A stretch of 64,000 nt of DNA from Ascidia mentula (lineage: Eukaryota > Chordata > Ascidiacea > Phlebobranchia > Ascidiidae), in assembly GCA_947561715.1 (NCBI GenBank), contig OX387201.1, forward strand, positions 21,714,001 to 21,778,000, given 5' to 3'. A program made the translations under genes and the position numbers. Under the pieces are notes generated by a model that was not told the origin of the DNA, searched no databases, and saw nothing but the letters and a program-made list of their open reading frames with translations. Shown piece by piece: positions 10,775 through 24,104 of this stretch (its first letter is position 1; the number at the start of each line of letters is the position of its first letter).

Positions 10775-12705
10775 AAATCAAGTACAAGAATGAAGATGAA
10801 GAGCAAAAGAGAAAGAGTGCTTGGGAAACAAATTTAAACAAAATTAAAAATCACAATTTGAGATGTAAACAAGGAGAGGTTACTTACCGCATTGGTCTAT
10901 CAGCATTTAGTGATAAGGTTTGCGAAATAACGTTCAGTTACGTAAGAGTTTTTTTAATTTTTTTGGTTATTAATTTGTGGAAATAATCATTTTCGGCTAA
11001 ATTTAAAATTTAACAAAAGTAGTAAAATCAACAAAAGTCTGTAATATGTATACCAAAAAATAACAGAATCCTGAAGATCTTCCTTGGATCAATGGTGCTA
11101 ACGTCGAAACAAGTGATGAGTCTGATAATGAAGATGATGATGACGATGATGATAGTGGGGATGATGATAGTGAAGATGATGATGATGCTTGTGGTGGTGC
11201 TACTTATAAAATGCTTCACGGAGGTAAAATCAACACTGGAGAATTCACATATCTTTAATTTATTTATCCGCAAGGTACCGGTGACAGAGACTGGAGAGAT
11301 GAGGGGTGTGTCACTGACATTAAAGACCAAAAAGATTTGCCAGTTTGCTGGATATTTGCCGCTGTAAGTGCCTGGTTGAACCCATATGTGTTTTGTCATT
11401 GTTTTGTCACAAGTAACTTTTAGGTTGGTGCAGTGGAATCTCATAACAAAATTAAGAATGGAGAATTAATCAAACTATCAGAACAACAACTTGTTGATTG
11501 TATGAAAAATGGTGACTGTAGTGGAAAATCGAGACACGCATTTAAACATATCAAAAAATATGGCACAAGAAGCTCTCAACAGTACCCGTATAATGGAAAA
11601 GTTTGTATATTGTGTTGCCGATATTACGTATTACCTTTGTGGTGTGATTATACTCATATGTACCAATTTAGAGAGAGGATTGCAAACAGGAAGCAACAAA
11701 AGTTGTGTGCAAAATTACTGATTGGATAAAAATTAACAATGAAAATGAGCTGATGACAATCGTGAGAGAACAAGGACCTGTTGCGGTTTGTCTCACCATA
11801 TCGGACTTCTTTTCATTTTCTCAAGTTACGGATTTTGATGGTAACTGAACATATTAACTTTAGGATGGAAATATCAATTTAACTTTCATTCAGAAATATA
11901 TTTTGATCCGGACTGGAAATCTGTACCCCCAATAATAGAAGATCCCAACCAATTTAGGCATTATGTTTTGGTGGTTGGAATCGGGACTGATGAAGATAAA
12001 GAGGTCGTGAAAGATTACTGGATTATCAAAAACAGGTTAAAAGATTTGCAAACTTTTGTGTTTCTTTATATTTGTTTGAAAATTGATAAAACAATTGAAT
12101 GAAATACTGGGCAAGCACACTCATTTATAGGGAAGTAAATTGCATTTAAAATACCACGCACACAAACAAGAAACACGCAGAATGGACTGCGGCACATTCC
12201 ACGAATCACGTGGCTGTGGCATGCAAGGGCACTGTTGCTGCTGTGTATATGTAATGAGGCGTGACCACAACACAAACAATGGGTACACGAAACTATTTGA
12301 GTAATATTACTCAACCAACTAAATGCAAAACACATTGTTTGAATGAACATTAAAGTCTTCTTAACCTTTGCACATTTATTGTTATTTCATCTATTCTGGT
12401 TGTTTATTACTACCATGTGTTTTGCACAGTCTGTCGTAAGTGCTGTGTTAAACGCAATACTTACATAACTATTTGTTGTCTGTAGGACTAACATGCAACT
12501 TAAGTTGATCAAAAAAATTAAATATAAATTGATATTTTGCAGTTGGGGAAAATACACCAATGGTGAAAATTCCGGTTTCCTGAAGATTGCAAGGAATGAA
12601 AACCATTGCAACATTACTGCTTATGCATATTATCCTGTAGTGAAACATAGTCTACAAGCTTTTCAGCTTCGAAATATGGATTATTGTAAATATTTCATCG
12701 AATGA
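10775..12705 (+). CDS. Papain/cathepsin-like cysteine protease module A (I29 prodomain + peptidase C1), 5' end not found
   Basis: Seven exons fit GT-AG and phase: 10775-10917, 11067-11223, 11275-11363, 11424-11600, 11690-11840, 11894-12035 and 12543 onward. Exon 1 is an I29 (ERFNIN-type) prodomain ending AFSDK. Exon 2 is a very acidic Asp/Glu linker (about residues 60-90). The mature domain has DQKDLPVCW (oxyanion Gln and catalytic Cys), LSEQQLVDC, FRHYVLVVG (catalytic His) and, across the last intron, KNSWG (catalytic Asn), so the triad is complete. The last exon can read to a stop at 12703-12705, or splice after Tyr-Pro-Val at 12639 as module B does. Exon 1 begins in phase 1, so at least one upstream exon is required. 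None is visible between the satellite and 10775. It is either left of the satellite, making the array intronic, or lost. Confidence 0.8.
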
Positions 12706-13921: not shown

Positions 13922-14060
13922 CTGGGGAGTGAAAAATGGAGAAGTTGAAAAAGGTGGAAATGCGGGTTACAAGAAAGTAGCCAAGAATCGTGGAAACAAT
14001 TGCAACATTGCTGGGGACGCCCTGTATCCCAGGATGCAGGATTTTAGAGTGACAGCTTAA
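13922..14060 (+). pseudogene. Orphan last exon of a fifth cathepsin-like module
   Basis: The frame reads WGVKNGE..., NAGYKKVAKNRGNNCNIAG and ALYP, then a stop at 14058-14060. This matches the final exon of modules B-D (NAGYKKIAK..NNCNIAG..YPV). The base before TGG and the acceptor that would complete Ser-Trp-Gly are missing, and none of the other six exons is present nearby. It is the relic of a deleted module. Confidence 0.8.
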
Positions 14061-14505: not shown

Positions 14506-14531
14506 ATTTTTATTGGTAGTGCGATCAGGAA

Positions 14532-16050
14532 TTATGAATGATGAATGGATTGGATTTTACGACTTCGTCACAAAATGGTATGTTGGGACAATCCTATGAC
14601 ACGATCACCAAAGTCAGAAGAAGAGAAGATCATCCCCCGTGCAAAGATTGGCGCAGTGAAAGATGCGTGACGTCAGTGAAGAATCAAAGAGAATTACCCT
14701 CATGTTGGATATTTAGCGCAGTAAGTTTTTTTTTCCGAAACGTTTGTAAATATATAGCAGTCATTTGCAATTAATATCAGTCACAACTTGCAGTTTATTT
14801 CCTTAGAAATGAGGGTAAGATTTTCACAAAAGGTTTCTTTACCCCAGATCATGACATATTACATGGGATAAATAATATTTTTTGATGCAAATCTTCGCAG
14901 ACAAAGTCACGAAAAAATATTGTGATGACTATCAACTGCTTTTATATTAAAATGATCCTCCTATCTGCGTGTCGAGGGCTCCCTAACAACCTTGATCATT
15001 GTTTAGTCACTCTCGAACTACGATGCGTATAAAGCGAAAAATTTTTCCAGATTTACACCAGACTTACATCAAGTATTTTGCGTGGAAAATTAGAAAAGTG
15101 TTGAGTCGCAAAACAAAATTAGGAATGGCAACCTGATAAAGCTTTCGGAAGAGCAATTGATTGCTGACCTTTCGAAAGGATATCAACAAGGAGATTTAGA
15201 ATGGGCTTTTCAATACATAAAAATTAAAGGATTACACAGAGACGAAGAATACCTCAATATTGCTGAGGTAAACTGTCAATATTTTATGATTTGTTGTTAT
15301 TCTAGCATTTGTACATTTGAACAGCAAAATGAAACTGTGAGAAAATCCACCGCAGAAAACACTGCAGTCACAATTAGTGAGTGGGAATCGATTCCTTATG
15401 GAAACGAGAAAGAATTGGAAACAGTTGTTTCACAAGTTGGTCCGGTTGCTGCAAGTTTGTTGGTTTCTGACAAGTTTAAATATCTAAATCACAGAAACCA
15501 CGATGGTAACGCTTTATTAATTGTGGTAAATTTTCCACTGTAACATAACTTGCAACTCAGATATTTTCTATGACTCTGGTGAATACGACGAAGCAAATGA
15601 AAACTCTCTGGCGCACGCAGTGTTGGTTGTTGGATATGGAAGAGATTCTTCCAAACAAGAAGGAGAAGACAAGTACTGGATTGTTAAAGAAAGGTATGAA
15701 CAGTTTGCAAATGGAGGACGAAGCTTAATTGAAGTAAGCCGAGAAATCACGAGCGTTAATTCTCCGTCAACACAAAAAAGAATAACAATGAAACAATGCA
15801 AAATTAAACTTGGATGAAAGACGAAATTCTGAATCATAACTGACGTAACATAGTGTTGCTTAGATTTGATGATGAAACACTTAGTAACTATGTGCATTTG
15901 ACTCGTGCTTTATTGATTAGAACTGAAGTTTTATTTACGTTTTCTAGTTGGGGAACCGATGATAAAAATGATCCGACTTCTGGCTACAAGAAAATTGCAA
16001 AAAATCGAGGGAATAATTGCTTCATTGCTGGAAGAGCCATGTATCCTGTG
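14532..16050 (+). CDS. Cathepsin-like module B, catalytic Asn replaced by Glu, no prodomain found
   Basis: Exons fit as about 14532-14720, 15094-15267, 15325-15505, 15561-15693 and 15948-16050, all in consistent phase. Visible motifs are NQRELPSCW (oxyanion Gln, catalytic Cys), LSEEQLI, LAHAVLVVGYG (catalytic His) and, across the intron after 15693, KESWG where the family has KNSWG. The active-site Asn is therefore Glu. The LVDC cysteine has become LIAD, and the VVC cysteine of the sister modules is missing. No I29 exon is visible upstream; a Gypsy fossil occupies that place. The last exon ends Tyr-Pro-Val followed by GTAAGC and splices in frame (phase 0) to 16170, the first exon of module C. 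I infer a non-peptidase or weakened domain inside a larger protein. Confidence 0.75.
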
Positions 16051-16169
16051 GTAAGCCAACACTGTCTCTACAATGTTGTCTCAAACGAAATATTTGCATC
16101 GCTTCCAGGATTAAATTTTGCTTGTCTACTGAATATTTTATATTATTTAGAATAATAATCTTAAAACAG

Positions 16170-18141
16170 GTGTGCGAAATCCCGTCAGATAAAGTTTTGG
16201 TGAAAGAAGTCGCAGTTTCCCATTTAGATTTCGCGGTTGAAGAAGAACGTTACATGTCTTGGCAGGAATGGAAAAATAAATACAGTGAGTTTGCATGTGT
16301 GTTGTTATGCTACAACGTGGATGTCAGTATATATTTCTGTTCTGCTCCATAGAAGCTGTCAAAAATATTAAAACCTTTCTAGCTTTTTAACTAAAAGTTA
16401 TTTTAAATATCTTTTTACCTCGAGTAGAAAACTGCAGTAAAGCAAATTTCCTACATAGACAAAAATTATGAAAATGATCAAGAAGAGCGAAAAAGGAAGG
16501 AGATTTGGAAGAAGAATTTAGAAGAGATTAAAGATCACAATCGAAGATATCACAACGGGGAGTTCACCTACCGAAATTACTTGAATCAGTTCAGTGATCA
16601 GGTGAAACCCCTTTTACATGGGAATTTACGACAAATTTTTATAAAACTTTTATTACTTTGAAGGAACTTGAAGAGCTTCAATGGATGAGTGGAGTCGATT
16701 TAAACTTAAACGACGAAACGCGAGAAGGTTTAATACCGGATGACGATGATGAAGGCTTGGTTGGGGCATCTGGATTTTTCGAGCTTGATTGGCGGGAAAT
16801 GGGATGCGTTACCGAAGTACAGAATCAAATGAGGTTGCCATCATGCTGGATCTTTAGCGCAGTAAAAATAAGTGATCTACTTTCCCCATACTTTCTTGCG
16901 TTGCTTTAAATTTGTATCGTAGGTGGCCGCCATTGAATACCACAACCAACTTCTGAACGGAACGTTGATCAAAATGTCAGAACAACAAATTGTTGATTGC
17001 CAACGAAGGGGAAACCGCAAAGGGAGACTTGATTGGGCGTTCAATTTCGTCAGACAACACGGCATTATGAGAGCTGAGCAATACCCATATGTTGGAAGGG
17101 TAAATTTTAGAAACGTATAATATACAACACACAACAGCAACAGCAACAAATCTAGTTGGCTACGAATGCCACCTTTTTTCCTATGTCACATATAAGTATA
17201 AATGAATATTAGATTAAAATATCACAAATTAAGGCAAACATGTGCTTAACGTTTTGAAAAAACACTGTTTATTCTTTCTTTCCAAGCTATTTAGTTTCCA
17301 CATGTTTATCTGAGTTTGGAAAGGAATTTTTGTAAATGAACTCTTGTAAATGAAAAAACCCAAACAATCTACCATCTAATCAACAGAGGCAACCTTGTCA
17401 AATGGTCGCAAACGAAGTTGTGTGCAAAACTAGAGGATGGCTGTCAGTAGCAGAGAATGATGAAAGCGATCTTGAGCGAATTGTGAGGGATGAGGGACCT
17501 GTTGCCGTTTGTCTGAAGGTTTCTGATTTGAAAAAGTTTAAAAGACAAACCAACTACCAAGGTAATTAACAACATGTAATGTGTAAACCACATAGTTGGG
17601 TTCGATTTGTTTGAACAATTGGTCGAGAATACGCACAGCTAAGCAAATTAGGTTCTAATAATTCAGGTACAAAAGCTGAAAATGACACCATCCATCTCCA
17701 GTTCTGTTTAAAAGAGAATTTCCGGATAAACTGATTCGATATAAACAGGTTTTGCTATCAAATTTTGCTTCTTTCAGATATATTTTATGATCCCAATTGG
17801 AGAGAAGTCAATAACAATCCAACAAATCCAAATCACTTAATACACGCTGTGTTGGTTGTTGGATACGGAGAGGACTCAAGCAAACCAAAAGGTCAAAGGA
17901 AGTACTGGATCATCAAAAACAGGTATTAAAAATATGACATAAAAGTATGATTGTATTATTTTAAGCTTTCTGACTAAAACTAGTAAACATATACCTTTAA
18001 TACCAATACTATCTTCTCATATTCTTTATGTTGTGAAGTTGGGGAATGGAAGGAGAAGAAGGCGAAAATGCCGGTTACAAAAAAATAGCCAAGTATCGTG
18101 ACAACAATTGTAACATTGCTGGGAATGCTATGTATCCTGTG
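16170..18141 (+). CDS. Cathepsin-like module C, most complete copy (linker + I29 + acidic linker + peptidase C1)
   Basis: Exons 16170-16284 (linker, ends WQEWKNKY), 16459-16601 (I29 with ERFNIN pattern, ends NQFSDQ), 16664-16861, 16923-17099, 17387-17561, 17778-17922 and 18039-18141 all fit in phase. The third exon holds a short acidic run (DDDDE) and then NQMRLPSCW with catalytic Cys. LIHAVLVVGYG gives the His, and KNSWG (split across the last intron) gives the Asn. No signal peptide or start codon precedes 16170. Instead the linker exon begins in phase 0 exactly where the last exon of module B ends, so B and C look like one transcript. The end may be a phase-0 splice after 18141, as in B, or read-through to a stop at 18226-18228. 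Confidence 0.8.
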
Positions 18142-18374
18142 GTGATGGGTAGGTTCCTTCCAATTTGTTTATGTAACACGAACTGGAGGTCAAGTAAAAC
18201 CTGTAATCCCCCATCTGTTTGGCAGTAATGTTTCATGCAATGGCAGGATCGCCCCACTGTGCAGTTCCTTACTTGGCGATCACAACTATCGTATCGAGAT
18301 CATTAGGTTTACAGGCTTCGCAGTAGAGATTCCCTACGTATATGTGAAGGTTGCCTGGCAAGTTGTGCGCTTGC

Positions 18375-19925: not shown

Positions 19926-20690
19926 TTCGGCCGAAAAAATCAAACTTGTTTGATCGCGTCGGATGGCCAATCGACATCGCATCTGTGGGCAACTGTTAAT
20001 AATGTTATTCGTCTAAAGTCAAACTATACACAGCGGCTTTCCGCCCTCAGGCAAATGGACTTGTGGAAAGTTTCAACAGAACTCTGCAAATTGGATAGGT
20101 GAGATGCCACGGGTGTTGCTGGGGATCATGGCCAACCCGAAAGGTAATCTTCAATCCTCCAGCGCTGGGCTGGTATATGGCGAACCGATCGCTGTACCGG
20201 GTGATTGCATTCCGCACACCACCACCGCAGTTGAACCCTCGCAATTTCTAAAAAAGCTTCGCAGTTCCGTTTCTCGTGTTCTACCTGTACCAATGTCCCG
20301 CCATCGAACTTATCGTACTTTTGTTTCTGATTTGCTTTTTACTTGCGAGTATGTGTTTGTTCGGAAAGATGGAGACCGTCCTCCTTTAAATTCACCATAT
20401 CAGGGACCTTTTCATGTTGTAACGCGCAACGACAAATATTTTGTGTTAGATATTTCTGGAACTCGGCAAACAGTGAAGTTTAAATGACCTTTATAAGGTT
20501 CATCTTATTGCGTCACTCAGACAACGTGTTTCAAATTATGTGACATTAGCCGCAAGGTGGCACATTACAGTCAGTAGACTTCATTGTCCCGCAGTGTGTT
20601 GTGTGGGTCAGGTGATACTTGGGAGATTTGGGATTTCCGGTGCCCCAGGTAAATCTTAAGCACAGATAACAAGGGTAAGTGGCCATTTTT
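19926..20690 (+). mobile_element. Ty3/Gypsy fossil, integrase C-terminal region
   Basis: The readable frame at about 20104-20487 has VLLGIMANPK, SAGLVYGEP and YQGPFHVV, the order seen at the end of Gypsy integrases (PxVLLG, YG.P, GPF.V). It is broken with several lesions and lacks the rest of the element. The state of decay suggests an old insertion. Confidence 0.8.
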
Positions 20691-22143: not shown

Positions 22144-24104
22144 CATAAATTGATTCCTGTATCACCAGAGCAAAGCTTTGCAATGACAGTCCTATTTGAC
22201 GATTGGATGAAGAAATACGGTGAGACGTTTTTGTGTAAGGGCATATTTTACAAAACGGTGTTAACCGTGTGTTTGTGGTTTACAGGGAAAAAGTACAGTG
22301 ATGAGGAAGAAATGGAAAGGAGGCAAAATATCTTTGAAAAAAACATGAAAAGAATCGAAGAACACAACAAACGGGTTACAAAGCTGGAGAATATTCCTGC
22401 CGGGTATCGCTGAGTCAATTCAGTGACAAGGTAACGTTTAAACTTTGTGCTGGGTTTAAATGAAACGAAAACATTATAGGCCTACATACCTGCAAAAACT
22501 TTTTGTACAGTGACGAAGAACTTTCCAAGATGAGCGGAGTGCCAAACAAAGTTCAATTCGCAATTAAATGAACATAAACCAGTCCTTACATGAACATAAA
22601 CCAGTCTTTGTAAAGTTTCTTAATCTACCGTTTGTGCCGCTTACAATCGAGTAAATACGGTATATGAGTTTTTGTTAATAGTGATATAGTAGAAAGTTAA
22701 ATTATTACTGTATATGGGTTTGGTTAGTAGTTTTGTAGTCGTGTGTTACATTTGAAAAATGTATTTTTTGGTCATTTTTATTTTTGGATGTCTCTAAAAT
22801 ATATTTGGTATTTTATACTGTCAATCTTTTATTTTTTATTTTACACTCTCAATCTTTTTTCTGGTATTTTACACTGTCAAAAATACAAAACTGGATAAAT
22901 TTTTTCGTAGATAAATAGGGGCTATTGTAAATGTAACCAAAGCTATGCGTAGAGGTCCTTTCCCCAGAGCTTCTGTGTTTCACGATAATCTGGGCAATGA
23001 AGGGGATCCAGCATATCACCAGCTAAACACACAAAGTGACCAGAGTTACGACATAAAAAACTGGCGCACGGAAGGATGCGCAACTTCAGTTCAAGACCAA
23101 GGAGATTTGCCAGTTTGTTCGATATTTAGCGCAGTACTGATTTGTGATACCAGTTTATATTTCTATTTGTTAAATATTTATACATGCAGGTGGCAGCCGT
23201 TGAATCACATAATAAGATAAAGAACGGAGAATTGGTCAAACTATCTGAACAACAATTAGTTGATTGCATGAACACAGGTTCTATGGCTACTTACCCAGAA
23301 GATGCATTCCGTTACATACAGGAACACGGCATCACAAGCAATGAGCAATATCCATATGCAGGAAGGGTAAGAAAGTGTCATGCTGTTACGATTTGAATCC
23401 AACATTTTCTGTAAAACCAACTCCTGAAAATGAAACAGAACTTGTATTGCATCAATATTAACATAAAGAGTCATGTAAATCGGAAGGAAAAGAAGTTGTC
23501 TGTACAGTCGAAGATTGTATTAAAATTACCCCAGGAACCGAAAGCAAACTGGAAGAAGTTGTGAACGACGTTGGACCAGTGGTTGTCACTTTAAAAATAA
23601 GAAACGTATTTGGATTTCTGCACCATACTAATTACGAAGGTACCAGAATGTTTTGTTGTGACAAAAAATGATTTGAAGTTTTTTAACAGATATATTTTGT
23701 AATCGAAACGACGAGGGTGAAAGTAACTTTCTATACCACGCTGTGTTGGTGGTGGGTCACGGAATAGATCCAAACAAACCCCAAGGTCAAGACGAATACT
23801 GGATCATTAAAAACAGGTAAACGAGTATATTGATTTATGCGTCGTGAAAGATGGTAAAAAAATTGGAAACTTAAAATCTAGTTATGATGGCAATTTCTTG
23901 ACACATTGTCGCGACCTTCAAAACCTCCATCACGCAAAGCTCTCTGAACGACAAAAAACCTTCATTCAGTATTCCTTTTGCAGTTGGGGAGTGGACGATG
24001 GAGAAGGTGAAAATGCAGGTAACAAGAAAATTGCCAAGAATCATAGTAATAACTGCAACATTGCCGGAAATGCGGTTTATCCCGTTGTTGTCAATGGCAA
24101 CTAA
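22144..24104 (+). CDS. Cathepsin-like module D, terminal module, prodomain disturbed
   Basis: Linker exon 22144-22219 (ends DDWMKKY) and I29 exon 22286-22430 are followed by a short exon near 22511-22550. The mature domain is in 22943-23133, 23190-23366, 23471-23639, 23690-23816 and 23984-24104, all in phase. The triad is complete: DQGDLPVCS (the usual Trp after Cys is Ser), LYHAVLVVG and KNSWG across the last intron. The I29 exon is 145 nt where sisters have 143. Its frame meets TGA at 22411-22413 while the conserved SQFSDK lies in another frame, and the next short exon is also out of phase. The prodomain is thus decayed, or the assembly has an indel. The protein ends YPVVVNGN-stop and AATAAA follows at 24370, so this is the last module of the row. 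Confidence 0.75.

Follow-up and report, generated by a model that had tools for sequence, protein, structure and literature searches.

Do two neighbouring cathepsin-L-like modules in the genome of the ascidian Ascidia mentula encode two proteins or one? The question is raised by a 64,000-nucleotide stretch of contig OX387201.1 (assembly GCA_947561715.1, forward-strand positions 21,714,001 to 21,778,000), hereafter the window (C69:21714001-21778000, C69 being our handle for this contig), in which a sequence-only reading had taken positions 14,532 to 18,141 for two modules, B and C, spliced into one frame. We put the probability that B and C are fused in a single spliced reading frame at roughly 0.6. 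B–C would then belong, with its two modules, to a family of chained cathepsin-L-like genes scattered over the genome, and the chain family as a whole is, judged by its recurrent sequence pattern, very probably real.

A candidate frame across modules B and C

Modules of this family typically share one set of exons: e1 carries the start of the I29 propeptide and ends in phase 1, e2 the rest of I29, e3 a linker, often acidic, together with the active-site Cys, followed by e4 and e5, e6 the catalytic His and the first part of the Asn motif, and e7 the stretch from SWG to YPV. The exons of B and C, with the intron proposed between them, are as follows.

14529..14720, plus strand: B exon e3, linker and active-site Cys in PSCWIFSA, recognised by homology to e3 of other chain modules
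15094..15267, plus strand: B exon e4
15325..15505, plus strand: B exon e5
15561..15693, plus strand: B exon e6, catalytic His retained, Glu at the catalytic Asn position (IVKE-SWG)
15948..16050, plus strand: B exon e7, ending in YPV in phase 0 (...AMYPV, then GTAAGC)
16051..16169, plus strand: proposed phase-0 inter-module intron, 119 nt, GTAAGC...AAACAG, good donor, weak acceptor
16170..16284, plus strand: C exon e1, the putative link exon, 38 codons plus one base, start of I29, in-frame ATG at 16254
16459..16601, plus strand: C exon e2, remainder of the I29 propeptide, phase-1 start
16664..16861, plus strand: C exon e3, acidic linker and active-site Cys
16923..17099, plus strand: C exon e4
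17387..17561, plus strand: C exon e5
17778..17922, plus strand: C exon e6, His and Asn intact
18039..18228, plus strand: C exon e7, YPV, a 28-residue tail and TAA; the GTGATG after YPV starts with a Val codon and scores poorly as a donor

Spliced from B e3 to C e7, these 12 exons and 11 GT-AG introns give a single open frame of 638 residues and a stop; with splicing assumed, this gene model and the 904-residue model of a second locus (M15, below) each hold several C1 domains in one open reading frame. The Pfam papain-family C1 model (PF00112) matches both B (2.2e-37) and C (4.6e-45), and the I29 model matches C (3.7e-14); Pfam finds no I29 match in module B, and the nearest one upstream lies 3.6 kb off in an exon of the neighbouring module A, with all C1 exons of A in between. 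Human procathepsin L can be aligned with C over the stretch between the I29 Trp and the C-terminal YPVV/YPTV (E 4.8e-47), and C has all three of Cys, His, and Asn. It reads LPSC at the CGSC motif of procathepsin L, so that the conserved first Cys, the one with a disulphide role, is absent.

The features that had suggested a fusion were in part found as described: the last exon of B ends in Tyr-Pro-Val at 16050 in phase 0 with GTAAGC next, and 16170-16284 has a phase-0 start and a phase-1 end, matching the I29 exon at 16459. The statement that the latter exon has no start codon does not hold, since an ATG lies in frame at 16254. From the last B codon to the C exon there are 119 nt, and the stop at which B's frame would end if read on (16153-16155) lies 14 nt short of that exon. 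Taken alone, the phase and splice match of B–C exceeds chance only moderately. As to the beginning of B, a start at 14532 was abandoned, the DNA there being homologous to an e3 exon in another frame; B e3 has an in-frame TGA at 14535-14537, directly followed by tandem ATG codons at 14538 and 14541, and the ATG of the WMNGL motif, which is also seen in second-module exons of other chains, may serve as the start codon of B.

Chained modules elsewhere in the genome

In the assembly studied, COX1 shows Gly at its conserved positions only when AGR is translated as Gly, as in the mitochondrial code of ascidians (by eye). Genome-wide searches covered the 195.8-Mb assembly, and the closest relatives of B were found at dispersed loci, where an I29 exon follows the last C1 exon at 28 to 235 bp (807 bp at C52:8.766 Mb). 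A DNA search for link exons, the short exons that open the next I29 propeptide, returned nine genomic places at up to three mismatches and none with a reversed-pattern control; the link-exon family clearly exceeds chance. All nine sit 56 to 82 bp past the e7 match of a B-type module, and all nine have an I29 match downstream. Eight of them, at six loci, were read (the ninth is at C52:8765973). Their link introns are 52 to 78 nt long and in phase 0 without exception, the exons read (G/D)CG(P/Q)TWE(A/T)WK, no Met precedes the propeptide Trp pair in any of the eight, and the first ATG after the link acceptor is out of frame in each. Mean pairwise identity is 85% in the link exons versus 44% and 40% in the flanking introns, and 67% at the e7 ends, where one row is cut short. 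Changes among the eight link exons number 11 at 7.5 synonymous sites and 11 at 31.5 nonsynonymous sites (binomial p 0.001); they were counted against the consensus rather than on a tree and the copies are related, so this p is only a guide. The proposal that B and C share one frame through phase-0 introns is supported by the B–C sequence and more strongly by these eight junctions at six other loci, from which the fused mRNA is predicted.

At the M15 locus (C69:15948300-15954100), a three-module frame of 904 residues with one terminal stop is predicted from 18 exons and 17 introns, all GT-AG except a GC-AG intron after III.e2; the frame opens inside module I, its first exons lying beyond the part that was read. 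Pfam finds C1 in four stretches and I29 in two of this frame. At another locus (L042, C52:16836500-16837700, 16.837 Mb), the link exon has been lost, yet one unspliced open frame runs through a C1 end, I29, an acidic stretch, and the next Cys site. In a further chain module (C69:19109101-19110999), the e3-e4 intron is about 1.8 kb long and contains an insert that looks by eye like a retrotransposon.

First modules of the chain type, with e3 found, are present at nine loci: C69 at 15.948, 19.066, 19.113, and 19.127 Mb, C52 at 8.764 and 16.827 Mb, C71 at 8.695 Mb, C73 at 5.457 Mb, and the window. At eight of the nine, no I29 match lies within 5 kb upstream on the same strand; the I29 search scored 73/73 candidates and the search for the e exons 150/216, so a very diverged exon could escape the latter. 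No link exon was found at the 19.127-Mb locus on C69. The idea that each module is a prodomain-protease unit with an acidic linker was not borne out: B has no I29 exon of its own, and no I29 match was found directly upstream of the first modules of other chains.

In all eight non-terminal modules read, the catalytic Asn is replaced by Asp or Glu, and the terminal module M15_III also has Asp, with SHG for SWG; judged by these residues, the chains are made up of probably weakened domains, joined in the window by a single domain that looks complete, C. The ratio of nonsynonymous to synonymous substitution rates (dN/dS) in the C1 exons of eight chain modules is 0.11 to 0.51 in 27 of 28 pairs and 0.68 in the remaining pair (L044-L042); in the I29 exon that follows, it is 0.06 to 0.43 in the 25 of 28 pairs that are computable, three pairs with C being saturated. 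The chain modules thus show signs of purifying selection. Window B gives 0.25 to 0.38 against the seven other chain modules. B as a fresh pseudogene is disfavoured both by these values and by the first modules at other chain loci, for which no I29 was detected either. A tree was built from 29 modules plus two ordinary cathepsins (L042, L043, and L044 were outside it); in it, window B and four other chain modules form one clade (100/100), the second modules M15_II and M19_II group together (100/97), and the terminal modules C and M15_III fall with the standalone A and D types (99/98), although both are long branches whose placement is less sure. Because the second modules group together and the terminal ones stand apart, the order first-second-terminal appears common to two copies, as far as they were read.

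The donors at the module ends were compared between chains and standalone modules. The standalone set comprised 23 non-B last exons of the 24 listed in a 250-kb array, where many modules are near-identical to one another. Val or Gly-Val follows YPx in 19 of these and Gly plus a stop in one more; a stop comes within 12 residues in 17 of 23, the longest tail being about 50 residues, and cathepsin L itself terminates at this place (YPTV). A donor model built on 77 family sites picked by exon homology gave 4.4 to 8.9 for eight chain-type ends, B included, and -15.1 to 3.8 for the 23 standalone ends. The sequence-only reading had made every module a phase-0 unit fit for chaining; this was not supported, in that all 23 standalone ends score below each of the eight chain donors. 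The GT after Tyr-Pro-Val is indeed present in A and C, where it belongs to a Val codon and scores 1.1 and 0.2, below the lowest chain donor, and D scores -4.6; a splice donor at this place in every module was therefore rejected, given the Val or Gly-Val codons of the 19 standalone ends. In a second donor model, trained on array modules only, ten chain ends score 1.35 to 9.99, A 0.85, C -0.64, and D -3.67. GTA stands exactly at the donor place in all ten chain ends read, and also, as GTATAA, in three standalone ends.

Chains are part of a larger expansion, with at least 131 C1 exon matches (150/236 candidates scored) and 61 I29 exon matches. Apart from that of C, 10 of 12 e1 exons have an ATG shortly before the first Trp; the other two (128403, 129648) have none and appear to need an upstream exon. 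No signal-peptide-like stretch was seen by eye after the ATG in the 13 e1 exons listed, that of C included, unlike in ordinary cathepsin L genes (C52:13.268-13.278 Mb), where a comparable first exon has a signal peptide (by eye); for this reason, the expanded family looks leaderless. Neither those cathepsin L genes nor the cathepsin B-like genes at C1:19.575-19.583 Mb (by eye) look like such chains.

Three further observations concern the expansion itself. Five similar modules (C69:21823098, 21854655, 21896375, 21907139, and 21913795; array coordinates 109098, 140655, 182375, 193139, and 199795) read PCGWIFAA at the active site, with Gly-Trp for Cys-Trp, so that the nucleophile is either missing or displaced by one position. 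Module pairs at C1:15089597-15099191 and C69:21321802-21331399 have identical scores and the same spacing of 8837 bp in opposite orientation, which suggests that about 10 kb were recently duplicated between chromosomes 1 and 5, unless this is an assembly duplicate. In addition, C69:19.88-21.33 Mb contains 23 I29 matches of similar score, several with equal scores and mostly tens of kb apart, which look like a recently amplified subfamily.

Competing explanations for the B–C junction

A number of findings weigh against the fusion of B and C or against chains in general. The B–C acceptor is poor: a second splice model, a small one using intron letters only (31 acceptors and 48 donors chosen by exon homology, not RNA, with chain loci excluded from training), places it at the 53rd percentile of random AGs and below all 31 training acceptors, with pyrimidines at 6 of 14 positions. 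The same model also ranks two of eight link acceptors (M15 II-III and M19 II-III) below all 31, and it is thus a rough judge. C e1 differs from the nine link exons and was missed by their pattern; the first ATG that it has downstream of the acceptor, at 16254, is in frame and two codons ahead of the first I29 Trp. Of 1154 AGs, 263 are followed by chance by a phase-0 frame open for 28 codons, and a poly(A)-signal hexamer, ATTAAA (by eye), lies within the B–C intron. As for the family, a Met in frame follows the Trp pair in three of eight link exons, the M15 I-II donor (GTAATG) with its 1.35 in the second model comes close to standalone A, some e-exon matches of the chain-module search contain stops, and damaged copies occur, with a stop in e4 (L044), a lost donor of the link exon (L049, which is among the eight read), or the lost link exon of L042. 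On the other side stand the chain-type donor of B, the phase match, an EEE stretch upstream of ATG 16254, and the position of B within the chain clade. Because of the weak acceptor and the in-frame ATG in C, an operon and separate genes both keep some weight at B–C.

An operon is the stronger of these two, although we regard it as unlikely. B and C would then be separate proteins from one pre-mRNA: B would end YPVV...LE-stop at 16153 and be polyadenylated just before 16170, and the C exon at 16170 would take a spliced leader, with translation from ATG 16254 (MSWQEW...). The ATG in frame and first after the acceptor, the stop of B's frame 14 nt before the exon, and the hexamer in the interval all suit this arrangement, and about 20% of Ciona genes lie in operons of directly abutting genes, often mis-annotated as fusions (PMC2760879). 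The relatives of B–C argue the other way: with the first ATG out of frame and no Met before the Trp pair in all eight, their link exons are poor starts, six of eight link introns checked contain neither AATAAA nor ATTAAA, and GTA occupies the exact donor place in every chain end read, even if three standalone ends share it. Several paralogues have the acidic EEE stretch after their start Met, while in C it sits upstream of ATG 16254 (by eye). At the link loci, an operon is disfavoured because the downstream unit would be without a good start.

Two independent neighbouring genes are a little less probable again. C would have its own promoter and start, B would be decaying or truncated, and the phase match would be luck; this would agree with most array paralogues, which look standalone (an ATG before the first Trp in the 10 of 12 e1 exons, some near a TATA-like box by eye), with a B that has no I29 and a TGA before its ATG, and with the weak acceptor. 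Decay of B is at odds with its intact frame and its dN/dS against the other chain modules, and first modules for which no I29 is detected are the rule in the chain family. B also ends in a chain-type donor, unlike all 23 standalone ends, and no more than 119 bp separate its last coding exon from the first of C.

A single polypeptide made of four or more modules, A-B-C-D, is highly improbable and was rejected. The modules do lie in tandem on the same strand, and D e1 starts in phase 0 behind a good acceptor; against this, A begins with an ATG exon of its own, neither A nor C has a good donor after YPV, D is frameshifted, and a transposon-like stretch (by eye) separates C and D. The features concerned, together with a relic between A and B, are these.

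10780..12639, plus strand: module A exons e2-e7, a standalone neighbour outside the chain
13923..14030, plus strand: orphan relic of the last exon (e7) of another module
22144..24104, plus strand: module D, frameshifted I29 exon, ending YPVVVNGN-stop, outside the chain

Exon e1 of A, with its own ATG, is at about -199 (C69:21713802), just beyond the window and about 11 kb upstream of A e2, which speaks against A as a chain link. In D, the phase-0 exon at 22144 is present with its good acceptor, as had been noted; its role as a chain link was not upheld, the I29 exon being frameshifted between 22374 and 22380. A exon 11070-11225 and its upstream paralogues contain an Asp/Glu run of variable length between I29 and C1. 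Positions 20040-20640, between C and D, resemble a retrotransposon integrase by eye.

Proposed architecture and known systems

If B and C are fused, cis-splicing would join the last C1 exon of the upstream module (Tyr-Pro-Val, phase 0) to the short exon that opens the next I29 propeptide, giving the architecture C1(B)-I29-C1(C) in the window and C1-I29-C1-I29-C1 in three-module copies. Ordinary cathepsin L genes would be the ancestors of the modules; the expanded family would have lost that part of the first exon which encodes the signal peptide, and the chains the start codon as well, so that the first exon now opens at a 3' splice site. The product would be a leaderless polyprotein, probably intracellular. 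C, with Cys, His, and Asn, would be the main protease, kept latent by the central I29, and it may release itself by cutting the acidic I29-C1 linker; B, which keeps Cys and His but has Glu for Asn and no propeptide, may be a weak or a substrate- or inhibitor-binding module. The fused mRNA and the location, processing, and activity of its product are predictions from genomic DNA.

A broader proposal is more tentative, and we would place it somewhat below even chances: that leaderless cathepsin polyproteins of the form C1-I29-C1(-I29-C1), with a propeptide-less first domain and an altered Asn, have arisen in one chordate lineage, in which the propeptide between domains may fold or inhibit both, that the chain-type modules are a single clade which, wherever a link is present, occupies the non-terminal positions, and that whole chains have been copied as units to several chromosomes. 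If the chains are real, they show that a protease polyprotein can arise simply, when an exon beside a gene with a phase-0 end loses its start codon, and they could be used to test whether a propeptide serves both the preceding and the following domain. In the open-access literature, searched by titles and the starts of abstracts, no report of chained cathepsins with several C1 domains in one chain was among those listed; two of the papers found concern cathepsins B, H, C, and X/Z and cathepsin C.

Compared with cathepsin L (C1A plus I29; PDB 7w33, 1cs8), the likeness is that of C, aligned from the I29 Trp to the C terminus with Cys, His, and Asn. In the chains, by contrast, several C1 domains would share a reading frame, the expanded family shows no signal peptide, and the linker is acidic; the window modules also differ in LPSC for CGSC in C and in the Glu for catalytic Asn and lack of I29 in B. 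A second comparison is with the operons of Ciona, whose genes abut without intergenic DNA and are resolved by spliced-leader trans-splicing (PMC2760879). Operon genes lie on one strand within 100 bp of each other; the corresponding distances are 52 to 78 nt at the eight links read and, at B–C, 119 nt to the C exon, or 14 nt when counted from the stop of B's read-on frame. In an operon, the downstream gene needs its own start, whereas all eight link exons are without one before the Trp pair; C e1 in the window has its ATG at 16254. If the chains are real, these loci could also show how true fusions are distinguished from operons in animals among which both may occur.

The polyserases, by comparison, are clan SA serine proteases, secreted or membrane-bound, with a fold unrelated to the papain fold. 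Polyserases 1-3, which are human, carry two or three serine-protease domains in tandem (PMC1435904), and they are like the proposed chains in combining several protease domains in one polypeptide, some without catalytic residues. The chains described here would differ in being papain-fold, apparently leaderless proteins whose domains are separated by inhibitory propeptides. For serine proteases, polypeptides with tandem protease domains have already been described, and among cathepsins the arrangement would be unusual.

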